IMG/VR virus record: IMGVR_UViG_3300048032_000289
Location: 1 to 24,570 of that record
Origin: a virus
Strand: one strand, 5' to 3'
Length of the DNA stretch: 24,570 bases
Made by a program: the position numbers and the translations under genes. Position 1 is the stretch's first letter. Each line of letters starts with the position of its first letter. Shown piece by piece: positions 17,518-23,342 of the stretch. The notes beneath the pieces were generated by a model. That model worked only from the letters and a program-made list of their open reading frames with translations. It was not told the DNA's origin and did not search any database.

Positions 17518-17525
17518 CATAAATA
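17518..17525 (+). promoter_or_regulatory. late promoter CATAAATA before the ligase-like gene
   Basis: CATAAATA in the 40-base gap fits NATAAATA and stands 25 bases before ATG 17551. No TTGACA-type -35 is paired with it. It probably drives the accessory operon from 17551 to 23342. Confidence 0.58.
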
Positions 17526-17550: not shown

Positions 17551-18804
17551 ATGATGGAATCCTTTAATGAATTTTTGACAGAAGATAAGGGTGGTAAGAA
17601 CCTGCATCTCGAACATATTGAAGATGAAATCATCAATTATGGAATTAGTGGTGGTAGGGCTTCAATAAATTTCTTACGTTCGTTGAGAGATATGTTATCT
17701 GGTTCTTCTACCAAACAAGTTAATATGACTGTTAAGTGGGATGGTGCTCCAGCAATCTTTGCTGGAGTTGACCCATCTGATGGAAAATTCTTTGTTGCAA
17801 AGAAAGGAGTATTTAATATAACTCCAAAACTTTACAAAACTAAAGAGGAAATAGATAATGATCTCTCAGGCAACCTTAATTCAAAATTTAAAGTCGCGTT
17901 GGAAGAACTTTCGAAATTGGGTATCACTAATGTTTTACAAGGTGATCTTATGTATACCGATGATGTAGAAACTAAAACTATAGATGGGATTAATTACTAC
18001 ACATTTCAACCGAATACAATTGTATATGCAGTACCAGTAGCTTCTGAATTGGGCAAAACCATCAAAAAGTCAAAATTGGGAATTGTTTGGCATACTACAT
18101 ATACAGGTAATGAGTTACAGGGTATGACTGCATCCTTTGGTGCTGATATTAGTAAGTTAAGAAAACCATCTACTGTGTGGATGGACGATGCTACATACAA
18201 AGATGTTTCTGGAAGTGCAAAATTTACTAAAAAAGAAACTTCTGAAATTACTAAAATACTATCATCTACTGGAAAAAGGTTTCAAAAAATTAAAACCTCA
18301 GATTTTAATAAATTTCAAAAGATGCAAATAGATGTAATGAAGGGAACATTATCTGGCGCATCATTTAAAACATATTTAAACTCTTTTATTAGAAAAGGTG
18401 AGTCATTTGACTCGACGAAGGCAAAAAGATTTGACTATCCTATGTACGTAAAGAAATATTTTGATGAAAAAATTATAGTCAAATTGAAAACTGAAAAGTC
18501 TCGAACTGCTAAGGCAGAATTGAGAGACCAATTAGTTAAAGATTTAATAAAGTATAATTCTATGATAATTCAACTAATAGAATTTATGTCTGGAATTGTA
18601 AACGCAAAAATGATTATTGTCAAAAAACTTGACAAAGTACAACAATTAACAAAAACTTTCATTCGTACATCGAATGGATATAAAGTAACAAATGCAGAAG
18701 GTTACGTTGCTATTGATAATAATGGTAAATCTGCAGTAAAATTAGTGGATAGATTAGAATTCAGTTATAATAATTTCACAGCAGCTAAGGCATGGGATAA
18801 ATAA
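17551..18804 (+). CDS. ligase-like covalent nucleotidyltransferase with capsid-targeting-like N-terminus
   Basis: 417-residue protein. VKWDGAPAIF (61-70) has the KxDG motif I of DNA/RNA ligases and capping enzymes, with K62 as candidate for the nucleotidyl-lysine. Further matches are VLQGDLMYT (128-136, motif III-like), EGYVAI (383-388), identical in its first five residues to motif IV of T4 RNA ligase 1 (EGYVAV), and AVKLVDRLE (395-403, motif V-like). About 245 residues separate motifs III and IV, far more than usual, so a large insertion is implied. A ligase or related adenylyltransferase is likely; the substrate is unknown. Residues 2-11 (MESFNEFLTE) resemble the T4 capsid-targeting sequence. 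The start is ATG 17551 (AGGA at 17539-17542); ATG 17554 is an alternative. A late promoter lies upstream. Confidence 0.72.
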   Translation: MMESFNEFLTEDKGGKNLHLEHIEDEIINYGISGGRASINFLRSLRDMLSGSSTKQVNMTVKWDGAPAIFAGVDPSDGKFFVAKKGVFNITPKLYKTKEEIDNDLSGNLNSKFKVALEELSKLGITNVLQGDLMYTDDVETKTIDGINYYTFQPNTIVYAVPVASELGKTIKKSKLGIVWHTTYTGNELQGMTASFGADISKLRKPSTVWMDDATYKDVSGSAKFTKKETSEITKILSSTGKRFQKIKTSDFNKFQKMQIDVMKGTLSGASFKTYLNSFIRKGESFDSTKAKRFDYPMYVKKYFDEKIIVKLKTEKSRTAKAELRDQLVKDLIKYNSMIIQLIEFMSGIVNAKMIIVKKLDKVQQLTKTFIRTSNGYKVTNAEGYVAIDNNGKSAVKLVDRLEFSYNNFTAAKAWDK

Positions 18805-19161
18805 ATGTTTACATATAGAGCAACAATATTAAGATGGGTTGACGGTGATACCGTTGATGTGGATATTGATCTAGGTTTTGGGGTATGGTTACGAAAACAA
18901 CGTGTAAGGTTGTTTGGAATTAACACTCCAGAAAGTCGTACTAGAGATTTGGAAGAAAAGGAGCGTGGACTTGCTGCAAAAGAATTTGCAAAAAGTTGTG
19001 CGCCAGTTGGTACATCAGTTACTATTCAAACTACTAAGGGTAAAGAGACAGGAAAATACGGTCGTATCCTTGGTACTATAATGGTAAATGAAGATCAATC
19101 AGTAAATCAAATGTTAATTGAAAACGGACATGCAGTAGAGTACTTTGGAGGAAAAAGATGA
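18805..19161 (+). CDS. SNase-like (thermonuclease family) nuclease
   Basis: 118-residue staphylococcal-nuclease-like protein, a Ca-dependent phosphodiesterase family acting on DNA and RNA. Motifs are WVDGDTVDVDIDLG (metal-binding aspartates), VRLFGINTPES (catalytic Arg and first acidic turn), AKEFAK (catalytic-region Glu) and GKYGRILGTI (second Arg), all in the usual order and spacing. No signal peptide is visible, so it would act in the cytoplasm or inside the virion. The ATG directly follows the ligase-like stop, and the four-base ATGA overlap with the next gene keeps it inside the accessory operon. It lacks the capsid-targeting-like peptide of its neighbours. Confidence 0.88.
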   Translation: MFTYRATILRWVDGDTVDVDIDLGFGVWLRKQRVRLFGINTPESRTRDLEEKERGLAAKEFAKSCAPVGTSVTIQTTKGKETGKYGRILGTIMVNEDQSVNQMLIENGHAVEYFGGKR

Positions 19162-19469
19162 CTAATCATATAAATGCATGGCAAAAGATGATTGAAAATC
19201 TAAATGACAGATTTGACCCATCTTCTGACATAGAAGAAGATTTTGTACAACCTTTAGTTGAAGATCATGAGGCAGATATGGCACTCACTGAGTTAAAATC
19301 TATTTCTGATAAGGCATTACAACTGGCAGAAGAAATTGAAAAGAAGAAAAATGCAATGGGTGGTGAATTAGAACTTGCAGCATGGTGTCAATCCAAAATC
19401 ACCAAATGCAATGATTATATGAACAGTGTATATGATTACATGATGTATTCTGGTGATGAGAATAGTTAA
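19158..19469 (+). CDS. small helical phage protein of unknown function
   Basis: 103-residue acidic, helical protein. The C-terminal part (ALQLAEEIEKKKNAMGGELE, then AAWCQSKITKCNDYMNSVYD) resembles a short module recurring in marine T4-like phage proteins (L-x-x-W-x-QSKI-x-x-x-x-DY-x-x-x-V-x-DY), whose role I do not know. No enzymatic motif is seen. ATG 19158 overlaps the nuclease stop and has GGAGG at 19147-19151. Its stop overlaps the next start as TAATG, so it is translated in a chain with the flanking genes. Confidence 0.65.
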   Translation: MTNHINAWQKMIENLNDRFDPSSDIEEDFVQPLVEDHEADMALTELKSISDKALQLAEEIEKKKNAMGGELELAAWCQSKITKCNDYMNSVYDYMMYSGDENS

Positions 19470-19762
19470 TGAAATCTTTTGGTTATTTCATATCTGAGGG
19501 TGTTAAACTCAAACTCATTCGTGGCAAAGACATGGATGTTTTGAAGATGTGGAATAAGGGTGATAAAAAGTGGGTTGAACTTAGGGGTAAGAGTGGATTT
19601 GAAACGAAGTATGATCCAAAAGACCCACTGCATAAGGCAATCACCGCACTTGGAAAGTCTGCAAGTATATCAGACTTTATGAATGGTGATGAAGTAAGTA
19701 TTAATCCAAAACATGCAGATGGTAAAAAAGCACTAAAGATGATTAAAGGACTGATGAAGTGA
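19469..19762 (+). CDS. small basic protein with capsid-targeting-like N-terminus
   Basis: 97-residue basic protein starting MKSFGYFISE, which matches the T4 internal-protein capsid-targeting pattern (MKTYQEFIAE) in spacing and ends in the IxE cleavage form. Cleavage after E10 would leave an 87-residue product beginning GVKLKLIRGK. The rest, with WNKGDKKWVELRGKSGF and a C-terminal helix (GKKALKMIKGLM), has no recognised enzyme motif. High lysine content would suit a DNA-associated internal head protein. It overlaps both neighbours by a few bases (TAATG and GTGA). Confidence 0.68.
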   Translation: MKSFGYFISEGVKLKLIRGKDMDVLKMWNKGDKKWVELRGKSGFETKYDPKDPLHKAITALGKSASISDFMNGDEVSINPKHADGKKALKMIKGLMK

Positions 19763-20364
19763 AAAGTTTTAATACATTTTTAGTTGAGGCCTCAGGTAAA
19801 GGACTAACAATCTTTGACATAGATGAAACTATGTTTATAACTAAGGCAGAAGTAAAGGTTGTTAAAGATGGAAAAGTTGTTAAAAAATTAAACAATCAGG
19901 AATTTAATACATATAAGAAAAAATCTGGAGAAGTGTTTGATTTTGGGGAGTTTAAAAGTGCAGAAGTGTTTAATAAAACTTCAACACCGATTGCCAGAAT
20001 GATTAATAAAGTAAAGGTAATACTGAAAAATGCAACTAAGGCTGGTTCAAAGGTTATTATTGTAACGGCAAGACCAGATTTTGATGACAAAAAATTATTT
20101 CTTGATACATTTAAAAATCAAGGGATTGATATAGATAAAATTTTTGTGGAACGCGCTGGAAATTTAGGTTCTGGTCCTGCTGCGGATAATAAGAAAGTTA
20201 TTTTTAAAAAGTACTTAGATACAAAAATATATAAAAGAATTAGACTGTTTGATGATGCAAATTCAAACTTAAAAATGTTTCTAAGTTTACAAAAAGAATA
20301 TCCAGAAGTATCTTTTGAGGCATTTCTGGCAAAACATAATGGATCAGTTAAGAGGGTAAGATGA
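19759..20364 (+). CDS. HAD-superfamily phosphatase with capsid-targeting-like N-terminus, GTG start
   Basis: 201-residue HAD-family protein. Motif I is FDIDETMF (nucleophile and acid/base aspartates D20 and D22), motif II VIIVTARPD (Thr), a lysine region around NKKVIFKKYL, and motif IV RLFDDANSN (acidic pair). The arrangement resembles the 3'-phosphatase domain of T4 Pnkp (FDVDGTL ... VVSGR ... DDR), but the substrate cannot be read from sequence and a 5'-nucleotidase is an alternative. Residues 1-10 (MKSFNTFLVE) fit the capsid-targeting pattern with LxE at the end. The start is GTG 19759, eight bases after AAAGGA; it overlaps the previous stop as GTGA and the conserved N-terminus begins exactly there. 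Confidence 0.8.
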   Translation: MKSFNTFLVEASGKGLTIFDIDETMFITKAEVKVVKDGKVVKKLNNQEFNTYKKKSGEVFDFGEFKSAEVFNKTSTPIARMINKVKVILKNATKAGSKVIIVTARPDFDDKKLFLDTFKNQGIDIDKIFVERAGNLGSGPAADNKKVIFKKYLDTKIYKRIRLFDDANSNLKMFLSLQKEYPEVSFEAFLAKHNGSVKRVR

Positions 20365-20708
20365 AAAGTTTTAACAGAGTAGAAGAAATTGACCAGATTT
20401 GCGAAGAATGCAATCTATATGAAGATTTAGAATTGATTGAATCTGAATATCAAGGTAAAAAAGTTACATTAAATAAACCTAGTAGATCCCAAGATGGAAA
20501 GAAAAAGTTTTATGTGTATGTAAAGAATGAAAAGGGTAATGTTGTTAAAGTTGGATTTGGTGACCCTAATATGGAAATCAAAAGAGATGATCCTGCAAGG
20601 AGAAAATCTTTCAGAGCAAGACATAACTGCGACAATCCTGGCCCTAAATGGAAAGCTAGATATTGGAGTTGTTATCAATGGCGTGGTGGAGCAAAAGTAA
20701 AGGACTAA
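20361..20708 (+). CDS. conserved marine-phage module protein (two-Cys, basic), unknown function
   Basis: 115-residue protein. The core (YQGKKVTLNKPSR, KKFYVYVKNEKGNVVKVGFG, DPNMEIKRDDPARRKSFRAR, HNCDNPGPKWKARYWSCYQW) is a strongly conserved module of marine T4-like phages, found alone or as a domain of larger proteins; I do not know its function. The strict HNCDNPGPKWKARYWSC block suggests a structured basic or metal-binding site. It starts MKSFN like its neighbours but then diverges (RVEEIDQI), so the capsid-targeting peptide is degenerate or absent; ELIESE at 24-29 is a possible protease site. It overlaps the HAD gene (ATGA), and its last 31 bases overlap the chosen start of the next gene. 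Confidence 0.75.
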   Translation: MKSFNRVEEIDQICEECNLYEDLELIESEYQGKKVTLNKPSRSQDGKKKFYVYVKNEKGNVVKVGFGDPNMEIKRDDPARRKSFRARHNCDNPGPKWKARYWSCYQWRGGAKVKD

Positions 20709-21145
20709 ATAGTAGTATGACAAACGAATACAAATATGAAGATGTAGATTTTGGATTTACTGCAGTAGATGAAGATGAATTACGTAGTCTCTCTGGTGGT
20801 GATGAATCTGTAGAAAAAGTAACACAAGTCGCAGAGGCGACTAGTGCAGAACTACGTGGACTTGACGGCAAACTCTCAGAATTAATTGAAATGCAAAGAG
20901 ATGTTATGTCTGAATTAATTGCATCTAAAAGTTTGTATGAAGAAAAGAGTAGTGGACTTGATATTTCTAAGGAAGTATTAGAAGATAAGTTATTAAAGTT
21001 GGAAAGACTTATTATGCCATTATTGCAAAACCTATTAAAGAATAAAGATAAAGAATATATTTTCTGGCCGAATAGAGAACCTATCATCAAAGCGCAAATG
21101 GAAAAAGTCTTAGAAATTACGAGGGATAACGATGGCGAAGGATAA
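20678..21145 (+). CDS. coiled-coil phage protein of unknown function
   Basis: 155-residue acidic protein. After an acidic N-terminus (YKYEDVDFGFTAVDEDE), a coiled-coil region (about 40-105) leads to a conserved-looking end: LERLIMPLLQNLLKNKDKEY, then IFWPNRE and a terminal helix. Many marine phage proteins share this L-P-LL-x-NL-x-K-x-x-KEYI-x-WPNR ending; its role is unknown. Two starts are possible. ATG 20678 has GGAG nine bases upstream, but its first 13 residues are read over the conserved end of the previous gene. ATG 20717 has AAGGA twelve bases upstream. I prefer 20678 slightly. It overlaps the next gene by 14 bases. Confidence 0.7.
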   Translation: MAWWSKSKGLNSSMTNEYKYEDVDFGFTAVDEDELRSLSGGDESVEKVTQVAEATSAELRGLDGKLSELIEMQRDVMSELIASKSLYEEKSSGLDISKEVLEDKLLKLERLIMPLLQNLLKNKDKEYIFWPNREPIIKAQMEKVLEITRDNDGEG

Positions 21146-23342
21146 AATTGTTTTTACGTTTGGTAGATTTAATCCTCCAACTACTGGACACGAAAAGTTA
21201 ATTGAAAAGGTTGCTGCAGTCGCTAAAAAAGAGGCCGCAGATTTTATGGTCTTTCCAAGTCATTCTCAAAATCCAAAAAAAGATCCTCTTGATTTTAAGA
21301 CCAAAGTCAGATTTATGAAAAAGATGTTTCCAAAATATTCAAGAAATATCATTTCAAATAATAAAGCAAAAACTGCAATTAATGTTGCAACAATTTTATA
21401 TGAAATGGGATATAAAGAATGTGCAATGGTTGTCGGTGGAGATAGAGTTACAGAGTTTAAAACTTTATTAAACAAGTATAATGGTGTTGAAGGCAGACAC
21501 GGACTTTATGATTTTAAGGGTGGTATTAAGATATATTCCGCAGGGGAAAGAGACCCAGATGCAGAAGGTGTTACTGGTATGTCTGCATCTAAGATGAGAG
21601 CTGCTGCAGCTGCAGATGATTATGATAGTTTTAAAAACGGTTTACCATCAAAGTTTGAAAGGACTGATGGTAAAAAATTATACACTGCGATCAGAAAGGC
21701 AATGAAAGTTGAAAATACCGAATTTGGATTGTGGTTGGGTGATGCAGAATTATTCTCAGAATTTATGAATTCTGGTTTCATTGATACTATAGGAGAGTCA
21801 TCTAATGATGAGGTCTTTGATATGATTTATGAAAAGGTATCTCAAAAACAAGTTGGAGATTTAGAGAAGTTTGCAGATAAATTACTTGCAAAATTTAACA
21901 TTGATGTTACATTTACGAAACACTTTGCAGATAGAATGAATGATTCTAGAAACTCTCCAGATATTAAAATTGCAGAGTTGCAAAAATTATTTAAAAAGAT
22001 ACAAAAAAATAAAGGTAAGAATATCTTATCAAATCCTGATATAGAGGCTGTACTAAAAGATATCTCAACTGACTTAAATTTGCCTGTAGTTATCAACTAC
22101 AATAATGGTGAATTTGAATTGGTTACAAAAACTATTATGAGAAAGAAAAATTTTAGTACTTCTAGTAAAGTTATGAAATATGAAGAAAACGAAATGAAAG
22201 ATTTTTCTAGTTTTATATCAGAAAGAAAAACTGCCCAAGACCCAGATGTAAAAGACAAAGAAGGCACTCAACCTAAAAAGTATTATGCAAAAGATGCTGA
22301 TGGTGATGATATGTCTAAGGGTACGAAAGAAAAGCGTGCAGCACATTTCAAGAAACAGGCAGACAAACCAGATGGTGATGATAAGTCATATAAACCAGCG
22401 CCAGGTGATGCAAATGCAAAAACTAAACCATCTAAACATACGAAAAAATATAAAGATATGTTTGGTGAGCAGATTGACGGACTAAGAAAAAAGGCAGATA
22501 AGTCTGGTATGCCATACAGTATACTTAAAAAGGTATATGATAGAGGTATGGCTGCATGGAAATCTGGACATAGGCCAGGCACTACTCCACAACAATGGGC
22601 ATTTGCAAGAGTCAATTCTTTTGTTACGAAATCATCTGGTACATGGGGTGGTGCAGATAAAGATCTTGCTGCAAAAGTAAAAAAAGAAAGTGTTGAAGAA
22701 GATAGAGATTATAAAAAAGAACGTGAAAACTATCATGGCACTCCAGAACAGATGGAAAAAAATCGTGCCAGAAAACGTGCAAGATATGCAATGGAAAAGG
22801 CCGGTAAAGCAAAACGTGGTGATGGTAAAGATGTACATCACAAAGACAATAATCCATTAAACAATGATCCAAAAAATCTATCATTAGTAACTCAACACTA
22901 TAATAGAAAAGAACCTAGAATGAGAGAAGAACTTTCGCTAGATAAAATAGATGAAATTACTAGTAAAAGACGAATGCAACTGATAAACAAAATCAAAAAA
23001 TCTGGTGTTGTCAAAAAAGGTTCTATGTCAAAAGATACCAAAGATAAAAAAGAAAATAATGGCCCATGCTGGCCTGGCTATAAACAAGTCGGTATGAAAA
23101 TGAAAAATGGAAAAGAAGTACCAAATTGTGTACCAGAGGAAACAGTGCATGAATCATTGTCTGGTGCAGAAAATCCACCAAAATTACCAAAGGCCGGTGG
23201 TGGAGAGTTTGGTACTAAAACTTTAAGAGACACTTATTTGAAAGATACTCCTTTTATGGAATTAGTTATGACGCCGAATGAATTAAAAAATTATCGCAAT
23301 ATAATTGATATTATAAATATAGAGAAAACCAAGGGAAATTGA
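21132..23342 (+). CDS. multidomain fusion: TTGH nucleotidyltransferase, RNase/toxin-like region, phage modules, HNH
   Basis: 736-residue fusion protein. Residues 1-190 form a cytidylyltransferase-like domain: FGRFNPPTTGHEKL with TTGH (17-20) for the family HxGH, VVGGDRV, and GMSASKMR (149-156) for the usual S-S-T-x-x-R. Residues 255-342 (FTKHFADRMNDSRN ... KTIMRKKNF) look like a small compact domain recalling BrnT/RelE-type folds, uncertain. Residue 355 starts MKDFSSFISE, a capsid-targeting-like peptide in the middle. Then follow a KYYAKDADGDD ... KPAPGD module (about 383-446), a SGMPYSILKKVYDRGMAAWK ... QWAFARVNSF module (458-520), an HNH-like segment (DVHHKDNNPLNNDPKNL, 567-583) and a CWPGYKQVGMK ... 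VPNCVPE motif (646-669). The ATG has GAGGG upstream. Confidence 0.75.
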   Translation: MAKDKIVFTFGRFNPPTTGHEKLIEKVAAVAKKEAADFMVFPSHSQNPKKDPLDFKTKVRFMKKMFPKYSRNIISNNKAKTAINVATILYEMGYKECAMVVGGDRVTEFKTLLNKYNGVEGRHGLYDFKGGIKIYSAGERDPDAEGVTGMSASKMRAAAAADDYDSFKNGLPSKFERTDGKKLYTAIRKAMKVENTEFGLWLGDAELFSEFMNSGFIDTIGESSNDEVFDMIYEKVSQKQVGDLEKFADKLLAKFNIDVTFTKHFADRMNDSRNSPDIKIAELQKLFKKIQKNKGKNILSNPDIEAVLKDISTDLNLPVVINYNNGEFELVTKTIMRKKNFSTSSKVMKYEENEMKDFSSFISERKTAQDPDVKDKEGTQPKKYYAKDADGDDMSKGTKEKRAAHFKKQADKPDGDDKSYKPAPGDANAKTKPSKHTKKYKDMFGEQIDGLRKKADKSGMPYSILKKVYDRGMAAWKSGHRPGTTPQQWAFARVNSFVTKSSGTWGGADKDLAAKVKKESVEEDRDYKKERENYHGTPEQMEKNRARKRARYAMEKAGKAKRGDGKDVHHKDNNPLNNDPKNLSLVTQHYNRKEPRMREELSLDKIDEITSKRRMQLINKIKKSGVVKKGSMSKDTKDKKENNGPCWPGYKQVGMKMKNGKEVPNCVPEETVHESLSGAENPPKLPKAGGGEFGTKTLRDTYLKDTPFMELVMTPNELKNYRNIIDIINIEKTKGN
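23312..23319 (+). promoter_or_regulatory. T4-type late promoter (TATAAATA) for the last gene
   Basis: Exact TATAAATA inside the 3' end of the fusion gene, 24 bases before ATG 23344. The expected start near 23325 leaves a short leader containing AAGGGA at 23331-23336. The same spacing is seen at 16071 and 17518. Confidence 0.58.

Follow-up and report, generated by a model that had tools for sequence, protein, structure and literature searches.

The internal proteins IPI, IPII and IPIII of phage T4 and their capsid targeting sequence were reportedly described by Mullaney and Black in 1996. According to a review, the first 10 residues of IPIII are sufficient for packaging, with residues 4 and 7 governing targeting and residues 8 and 10 governing processing; IPIII with Asp10 retained targeting and lost cleavage, the sequence binds the prohead core, and incorporation of diverse proteins by this route is suggested as a possibility for T4-like phages (PMC9026906). 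The T4 proteins Ip1-3 inhibit type IV restriction enzymes (PMC12373910), and T4 Alt and other packaged ADP-ribosyltransferases are head-packaged enzymes injected with the DNA (PMC9503650). Here we analysed a 24,570-base virus record of a marine T4-like phage (IMG/VR record IMGVR_UViG_3300048032_000289, hereafter the window), in which a ten-residue peptide resembling the T4 sequence, hereafter the tag, recurs within a cluster of eight genes at 17551-23342, all on the + strand. We consider it highly probable that this shared peptide is a T4-type capsid targeting sequence, and that the cargo bearing it is packaged, cut after Glu10 and ejected into the next host. For T4 IPIII both steps, targeting and cleavage, are established, and tagged enzymes have been reported in virions of relatives. 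On our best reading, the targeting sequence is already known and what is new is its broad use on enzymes of T4-like phages.

The tag of the window and its likeness to the T4 sequence

The preliminary description of the window had named four related peptides, MESFNEFLTE, MKSFGYFISE, MKSFNTFLVE and MKDFSSFISE, and all were confirmed at the positions given in Table 1, as was a gene at 20361 that begins MKSFN without the remainder of the motif. The exact motif, M[KE]xFxxF[IL]xE, was searched in the 31 coding sequences (CDS) of the window (8036 aa, the DUF6267 protein being read from 17554) and occurs four times, three times at N-termini and once at an internal ATG. A strict pattern, [KRE]x[FY]xx[FY][ILV]xE, applied in six frames to stop-to-stop stretches of at least 40 aa, also gave four matches, every one directly behind ATG or GTG. 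Whole-protein shuffles produced no N-terminal match in 20,000 runs, and when residues 2-30 were shuffled instead, the mean was 0.0001 matches and none of 20,000 runs reached three. Together with the start-codon position of all four matches, these shuffles rule out a chance origin. Because the motif was first spotted in this window, the tests on other phages carry the weight of the argument.

Like IPI, IPII and IPIII, the tags have a length of 10, Lys2, aromatic residues at 4 and 7, a hydrophobic residue at 8, Glu10 and often Ala11; the window tags have the aromatic pair, the hydrophobic residue 8 and Glu10. The T4 genes ipII and ipIII, both annotated as internal virion proteins, start MKTYQEFIAEA, as against M-K-S/T-F-x-x-F-I/L-x-E here, and in both cases the leader is common to otherwise unrelated proteins. 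The N-terminus of Alt, MELITELFDE, differs from the window motif. To see which columns are conserved, we collected 71 open reading frames (ORFs) from loci L008 onward (L numbers denote the fetched loci) beginning M[KR][STDNER][FY]xx[FY], leaving positions 8-12 unconstrained and excluding ORFs that fit the three scan patterns described below. Within this set, which is not fully independent since T4 ipI, ipII and ipIII belong to it, as do two proteins of cyanophages treated below and a copy of one window gene, 49 ORFs have I, L or V at position 8 and 39 have Glu at position 10 (Asp in six); Ala is the commonest residue at 11 (19 ORFs), and conservation fades beyond it. The tag also resembles capsid-protein maturation sites (cut at the slash): GSFLTE/A of T4 gp23, GSFLAE/A of S-SCSM1 and AFLSE/A of Melnitz. 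We take gp23 to be cut after Glu65, and the S-SCSM1 and Melnitz sites are presumed from it.

Across the whole T4 genome (ORFs of at least 45 codons) the patterns match only ipII, ipIII and gene 61.1. The last (NC_000866 18966-19130, minus strand, 54 aa, annotated as hypothetical) starts MKTFKEFIKEDMVAGDSGGN, an exact tag match, and sits between genes 41 and 61, an interval that in T4 holds anti-toxin genes besides this tagged orphan. In S-SM1, S-SZBM1 and S-SCSM1 the same interval holds a tagged cytidylyltransferase. Judging from its start and location, gene 61.1 may encode a further T4 internal protein.

Unlike the T4 internal proteins, the tagged proteins of the window are enzyme-like (ligase-like, phosphatase-like), those of relatives include kinases, a CCA-adding enzyme, a SAM hydrolase and NMNAT, and one tag of the window lies inside a fusion protein. 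The proposal of a T4-type capsid targeting sequence with a prohead-protease site is well supported by comparison. Its weaker parts are cleavage at Glu10 and injection, which are inferred, and its extension to the whole cluster, as only three N-terminal tags and one internal tag occur among the eight genes. Of the remaining genes, those for the SNase-like, 103-aa and 142-aa proteins lack the tag altogether, and in the phrog_7595 protein it is confined to the first residues.

One tag on many different proteins

To follow the tag in other phages, three patterns were scanned in IMG/VR and tallied together over all loci from L079 onward, an N-terminus being counted only for ORFs of at least 60 aa. 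The pattern MK[ST]FxxF[I/L/M]xE gave at least 124 distinct ORF N-termini, some of them from loci fetched by the other two scans; the remainder among the matches listed comprised 16 without an ORF, six inside longer ORFs, six at contig ends and 10 duplicates, which were dropped. A control with the second Phe shifted by one codon, for which the scan was complete, gave 17 N-termini, 33 matches without an ORF, five internal ones and 30 dropped duplicates. In ten of these 17 N-termini position 7 is F, Y or W, so that they look like tags themselves. With Glu placed at position 9 instead, at least 74 ORF N-termini were found (the remainder among the matches listed being 23 without an ORF, three inside ORFs, two at contig ends and 19 duplicates). 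This pattern was rejected as a clean negative control, as its first eight residues are common with the tag and 29 of the 74 listed N-termini have Glu10 as well. The two controls indicate that the first eight residues hold most of the signal and that Glu10 is common, if not absolute.

If the tagged genes were paralogues or had one N-terminal domain in common, the motif would reflect common descent and not a signal, and the tags are indeed alike at the residue level. We therefore clustered 201 tagged N-termini from 159 fetched loci by single linkage with a slightly wider pattern, comparing the sequence downstream of residue 11 by blastp (E<1e-3) and setting aside copies of the window and loci almost identical to it. 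They fell into 74 sequence clusters, the largest of which, with 83 members, is chained by single linkage and speaks for descent. The split into 74 clusters, the drop in conservation after residue 11 and the different families matched by the window cargos make common descent extremely improbable. Among 80 proteins scanned (74 representatives and six others), at least 25 Pfam families were found, some of the matches overlapping or weak.

Tagged proteins identified individually include an adenylate kinase (L104), an AAA_33 P-loop protein (L324), a cytidylyltransferase (L098), an HD_4 hydrolase and a CCA/poly(A) nucleotidyltransferase (both L014), and Acb1 (L384); four of ten proteins examined singly had no Pfam match. 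Seven genes of L014 that lie between DUF6267 and the cytidylyltransferase begin with MKTFYQYIEEA, MKTFVQFITE, MKTFYQYIEEA, MKTFYQYLTE, MKTFYQYTSE, MKSFLSHLNE and MKTFKEFREYLEE. This run (L014:11429-16291), to which the HD_4 hydrolase and the CCA tRNA nucleotidyltransferase belong, combines near-identical tags with mostly different proteins, two of which (323 and 317 aa) look related by eye.

Two side observations concern further tagged proteins. A homologue of Acb1 (PF23474), directed against the cyclic oligonucleotide-based antiphage signalling system (CBASS), starts with the tag MKSFKIFIEE in L384 (7670-8173), which suggests that it could be injected with the phage DNA. Two other tagged proteins (L102:10529-11047 and L113:3736-4149) contain a YHGT stretch and gave no Pfam match; we take them to resemble ADP-ribosyltransferases.

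Tagged proteins in published virion proteomes

In the cyanomyovirus S-CREM2, 218 of 219 CDS (gp32 was omitted) were compared with the 52 proteins of CsCl-purified virions (Table 3 in PMC10665884). The exact motif occurs in a SAM hydrolase, an APH-like kinase and a cytidylyltransferase, and all three are in the virion. A T4-like wider form marks four proteins, each of them a virion protein, and none of the 166 others (p=0.003), and a looser form within the first 30 residues was found in 7 of 52 virion proteins (p=0.002 against the others). Two extra matches of a raw ORF scan, at internal ATGs of annotated genes, were left uncounted. The virion protein gp136 starts MQTFSMFFSE. A further observation concerns gp12 (L070 7704-10313), a virion protein annotated as a Cas9-like nuclease, with the tag-like stretch LRFASFMAEA from residue 17, whose gene adjoins those of two other tagged virion proteins (13 and 14).

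In S-SCSM1 the sole exact match is NMNAT, which is labelled a virion protein (PMC9602691), and in S-SM1 the virion cytidylyltransferase starts MKKFSAFLNE (PMC3037559). The virion cytidylyltransferase of S-SZBM1 starts MRFRQFIIEA, one residue short, and was not counted as tagged (PMC9146016). When S-CREM2, S-SCSM1 and S-SZBM1 were combined (52, 45 and 30 virion proteins, respectively), the exact tag was found on five proteins, of which four are in virions, vs. 123 of 713 others (p=0.004); for the wider form the values were 5 of 8 vs. 122 of 710 (p=0.006). Tagged cytidylyltransferase or NMNAT (in S-SZBM1 with the shorter tag) and other enzymes have been detected by mass spectrometry in purified virions of S-CREM2, S-SCSM1, S-SZBM1 and S-SM1. 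The available portions of the four articles (PMC10665884, PMC9602691, PMC9146016, PMC3037559) mention no targeting sequence and leave open whether these enzymes are truly carried. Our literature searches, which covered papers outside subscription, returned no paper linking a capsid targeting sequence to virion enzymes of cyanophages or other marine phages, none for the term DUF6267 and none for the T4 decapeptide.

Several observations weigh against packaging and cleavage as a full account of the tag. In S-CREM2 the looser form also marks 3 of the 166 non-virion proteins. The tagged 106-aa protein S-SCSM1_30 (L395 44215-44535) bears no virion label, and the tagged small proteins encoded by S-SZBM1 genes 191 and 192 are absent from the 30 virion proteins listed (PMC9146016); given these three, the tag is an imperfect predictor of virion presence. 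In the scans, 45 of the Glu9-control N-termini among the matches listed are without Glu10. The strict pattern has no N-terminal match in HTVC008M or Melnitz, whose single match (in Melnitz) lies deep within a gene, and this rules out a universal tag; looser forms do occur, such as MQGFKTFLSEA of Melnitz gp15. Within the window the full tag is absent from four of the eight cluster genes, the SNase-like nuclease included, and among DUF6267 starts judged by eye in 35 of 59 fetched loci it was complete in 13 only, the others having a short start ending in [L/I/M/F]xE, e.g., MKKFLEEQ or LMENKAGKN. The window contains no head genes, hence the phage's own prohead protease lies outside its view. A gp21-type (S77) protease (PF03420) was found in 5 of 14 IMG/VR records, many of them fragmentary, and a search of the tagged L108 and L128 (>100 kb) gave no match.

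Three of these 14 records (L085, L086 and L105) are outside the N-terminal tag list, L085 being among the five positives, and protease co-occurrence was set aside as uninformative. HTVC008M, Melnitz, S-CREM2, S-SZBM1 and S-SCSM1 each have a gene annotated as prohead protease. As a side observation, a frequent small tagged family (S-VNISGDFNGNLYINS...) of about 105 aa includes S-SZBM1_191 (L068 37312-37629), S-SCSM1_30 and proteins of several IMG/VR loci; in the available data of two virion proteomes, its members S-SZBM1_191 and S-SCSM1_30 were undetected.

The S-CREM2 authors themselves consider that non-structural virion proteins may be carry-over (PMC10665884), which is also what would be expected if the tag were a handle for another structure or process (a replication complex, a membrane or a chaperone) and the virion matches came from abundant cytoplasmic proteins. 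The three undetected small proteins fit such a handle, as does the S-SCSM1 repressor RegA, which is cytoplasmic and untagged and is nevertheless labelled a virion protein. Against it stand the enrichment of tagged proteins in the virion lists, the coincidence of the conserved columns with the mapped T4 determinants, and the annotation of the tagged T4 ipII and ipIII products as internal virion proteins, and we regard this explanation as quite unlikely. The preliminary description had held that finding the same peptide on clearly non-packaged enzymes would speak against targeting: the strict form occurs on none of the 166 non-virion S-CREM2 proteins, and the tagged proteins that went undetected are the three small ones of S-SCSM1 and S-SZBM1.

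The gene cluster and its predicted cargo

The annotated relatives of the window region include Methylophilales phage Melnitz and Pelagibacter phage HTVC008M, both in Kyanoviridae. The order primase-helicase, DUF6267, cytidylyltransferase, with other genes interspersed, is common to the window and HTVC008M (gp125, gp127 and gp130). The features of the cluster are collected in Table 1.

Table 1. Genes, tags and promoter-like motif of the cluster (window coordinates).
Feature	Position	Strand	Basis or remark
T4-late-promoter-like CATAAATA, upstream of tagged cluster	17518..17525	+	motif
DUF6267 (PF19782, phrog_455) protein, ligase-like motifs	17551..18804	+	family matches, 20-sequence alignment
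Tag MESFNEFLTE of DUF6267 protein, from second Met	17554..17583	+	motif; predicted cut after E10 (E11 from first Met)
Staphylococcal-nuclease-like (SNase, PF00565) protein, untagged, starts MFTYRAT	18805..19161	+	Pfam match
103-aa protein, untagged	19158..19469	+	ORF
97-aa tagged protein	19469..19762	+	relative L014:12397-12741
Tag MKSFGYFISE of 97-aa protein	19469..19498	+	motif
HAD phosphatase-like protein, DIDET motif	19759..20364	+	phrog_415 and weak PF03767 matches
Tag MKSFNTFLVE of HAD phosphatase-like protein, GTG start	19759..19788	+	motif
phrog_7595 protein, degenerate tag (MKSFN...)	20361..20708	+	PHROG match
142-aa protein, untagged	20717..21145	+	ORF
Cytidylyltransferase + DUF5824 + HNH fusion protein	21132..23342	+	domain matches; N-terminus MAKDKIVFTFG untagged
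Internal tag MKDFSSFISE, between cytidylyltransferase part and DUF5824/HNH part	22194..22223	+	motif

All 20 aligned homologues of the DUF6267 protein share the Glu after which the cut is predicted, and the residues preceding it are variable or missing in the aligned part. The same 20 sequences have K62-W-D64-G65, E383-G384 and K397-L-V-D-R invariant. Among the motifs of this protein (KWDGAPA, QGDLM, EGYVA and KLVDR), we take the first and the last two to resemble those of nucleotidyltransferases and ligases, namely the KxDG nucleophile and downstream motifs. A ligase fold was supported neither by the AlphaFold model (mean predicted local distance difference test score 73, a weak C-terminus, and the tag in a low-confidence stretch at residues 1-15) nor by two comparisons with the PDB: Foldseek gave no match with E <= 0.001, and no ligase up to E=10 emerged when PDB sequences were searched with a profile. 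The ligase reading therefore stays at the level of motifs, which make a ligase-type nucleotidyltransferase probable.

The HAD phosphatase-like protein matches phrog_415, a polynucleotide-kinase PHROG, weakly (E=1.9e-7) and PF03767 (Acid_phosphat_B) below the family cut-off (E=1.8e-5), and no HAD relative was found among PDB sequences at E <= 1. For the 97-aa tagged protein no Pfam or PHROG match was obtained at E <= 0.01; its L014 homologue has 39% identity and the tag MKTFVQFITE. A cut in the phrog_7595 protein, if any, would perhaps fall near ...ELIE/SEYQGKK, judging from its residues. The L372 ORF MKSFREFIEESEYQGKKV, related to it by eye, carries a full tag. A relative in L014 (15968-16288) matches the large phrog_220, 'minor head protein and DNA pilot', with E=3.7e-6.

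The phosphatase and ligase of the T4 tRNA repair pair Pnkp (PseT)/RnlA would correspond to the HAD and DUF6267 proteins, if DUF6267 is a ligase. T4 PseT, RnlA and RnlB are themselves untagged, so that pre-loading of repair enzymes would set the phage apart from T4. The cluster had been described as a nucleic-acid-processing kit, a label that stands weaker now: it draws on motifs and weak domain matches, and the sole clear stand-alone nuclease, the SNase-like protein, is untagged.

In the fusion protein, the cytidylyltransferase end is untagged, and the same enzyme is tagged in many relatives. The module behind the internal ATG at 22194 has 45% identity over 164 aligned columns to a stand-alone protein of L155, which has an N-terminal tag of its own, MKSFRYFLKE, and starts MKSFRYFLKESKKYYKG. 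This makes the internal tag look like an N-terminus that survived a gene fusion, and it may now serve to start translation internally or to mark an internal site of cleavage. No tag was found at the internal position in the other fusion relatives (HTVC008M, L039, L043, L045, L050 and L309).

A late promoter at the head of the cluster had also been claimed. The CATAAATA motif does end 25 nt short of the first ATG, a position consistent with late expression and no proof of it. ATAAATA is not over-represented in the window, being rarer than expected (6 found vs. 13.1). All six copies are on the coding strand, and four lie wholly or partly within the 488 intergenic nucleotides (2%) of the 24,570. 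In L014-L017 ATAAATA stands at -35/-40 of DUF6267; of 33 loci overall, just 5 have it ahead of that gene. Both its rarity and this low frequency led us to reject the promoter as strong evidence.

For T4-type targeting we propose the following course. Aromatic residues 4 and 7 of the tag would bind the protein to the prohead core during head assembly, and the prohead protease would then cleave behind Glu10 ([ILV]xE). The mature cargo would remain among the DNA in the head and leave with it into the next host. In the window phage we infer as cargo the ligase-like DUF6267 protein, the HAD phosphatase-like protein and the small 97-aa protein, with the DUF5824 part of the cytidylyltransferase fusion probably cargo too. 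In other phages it would comprise cytidylyltransferase/NMNAT, SAM hydrolase, APH-like kinase, adenylate kinase, another P-loop protein, CCA tRNA nucleotidyltransferase, HD hydrolase and Acb1. Within minutes of the onset of infection this cargo would probably take part in repairing RNA or nucleotides and in counter-defence; its predicted roles in RNA repair, nucleotide or signal metabolism and counter-defence follow from family assignments.

Tagged proteins might instead be packaged without being delivered, serving head assembly as scaffold or in size control and then being removed or left inert. Binding of the T4 sequence to the core and the 'minor head protein and DNA pilot' match of the L014 relative of the 20361 protein agree with such a role. 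It is harder to reconcile with cytidylyltransferase, SAM hydrolase, Acb1 and the CCA-adding enzyme, which have no evident assembly role, and with the presence of some tagged enzymes in mature virions, and we judge it very unlikely.

Beyond targeting and delivery of the individual proteins, we lean slightly towards a broader view, in which T4-like, chiefly marine, phages would have a general cargo system that loads, trims and injects whatever protein has gained the tag. The window phage and its relatives would deliver a kit for RNA repair and signal clearing (ligase-like protein, phosphatase or kinase, CCA-adding enzyme, HD hydrolase, Acb1 and SAM hydrolase), by which tRNA-cutting, CBASS and restriction defences would be overcome ahead of phage gene expression. 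If true, a ten-residue rule would predict head-preloaded phage proteins from genomes alone and explain the cytidylyltransferases, kinases and SAM hydrolases in cyanophage virions. For abundant marine viruses it would also list the effectors that are injected as a first response.

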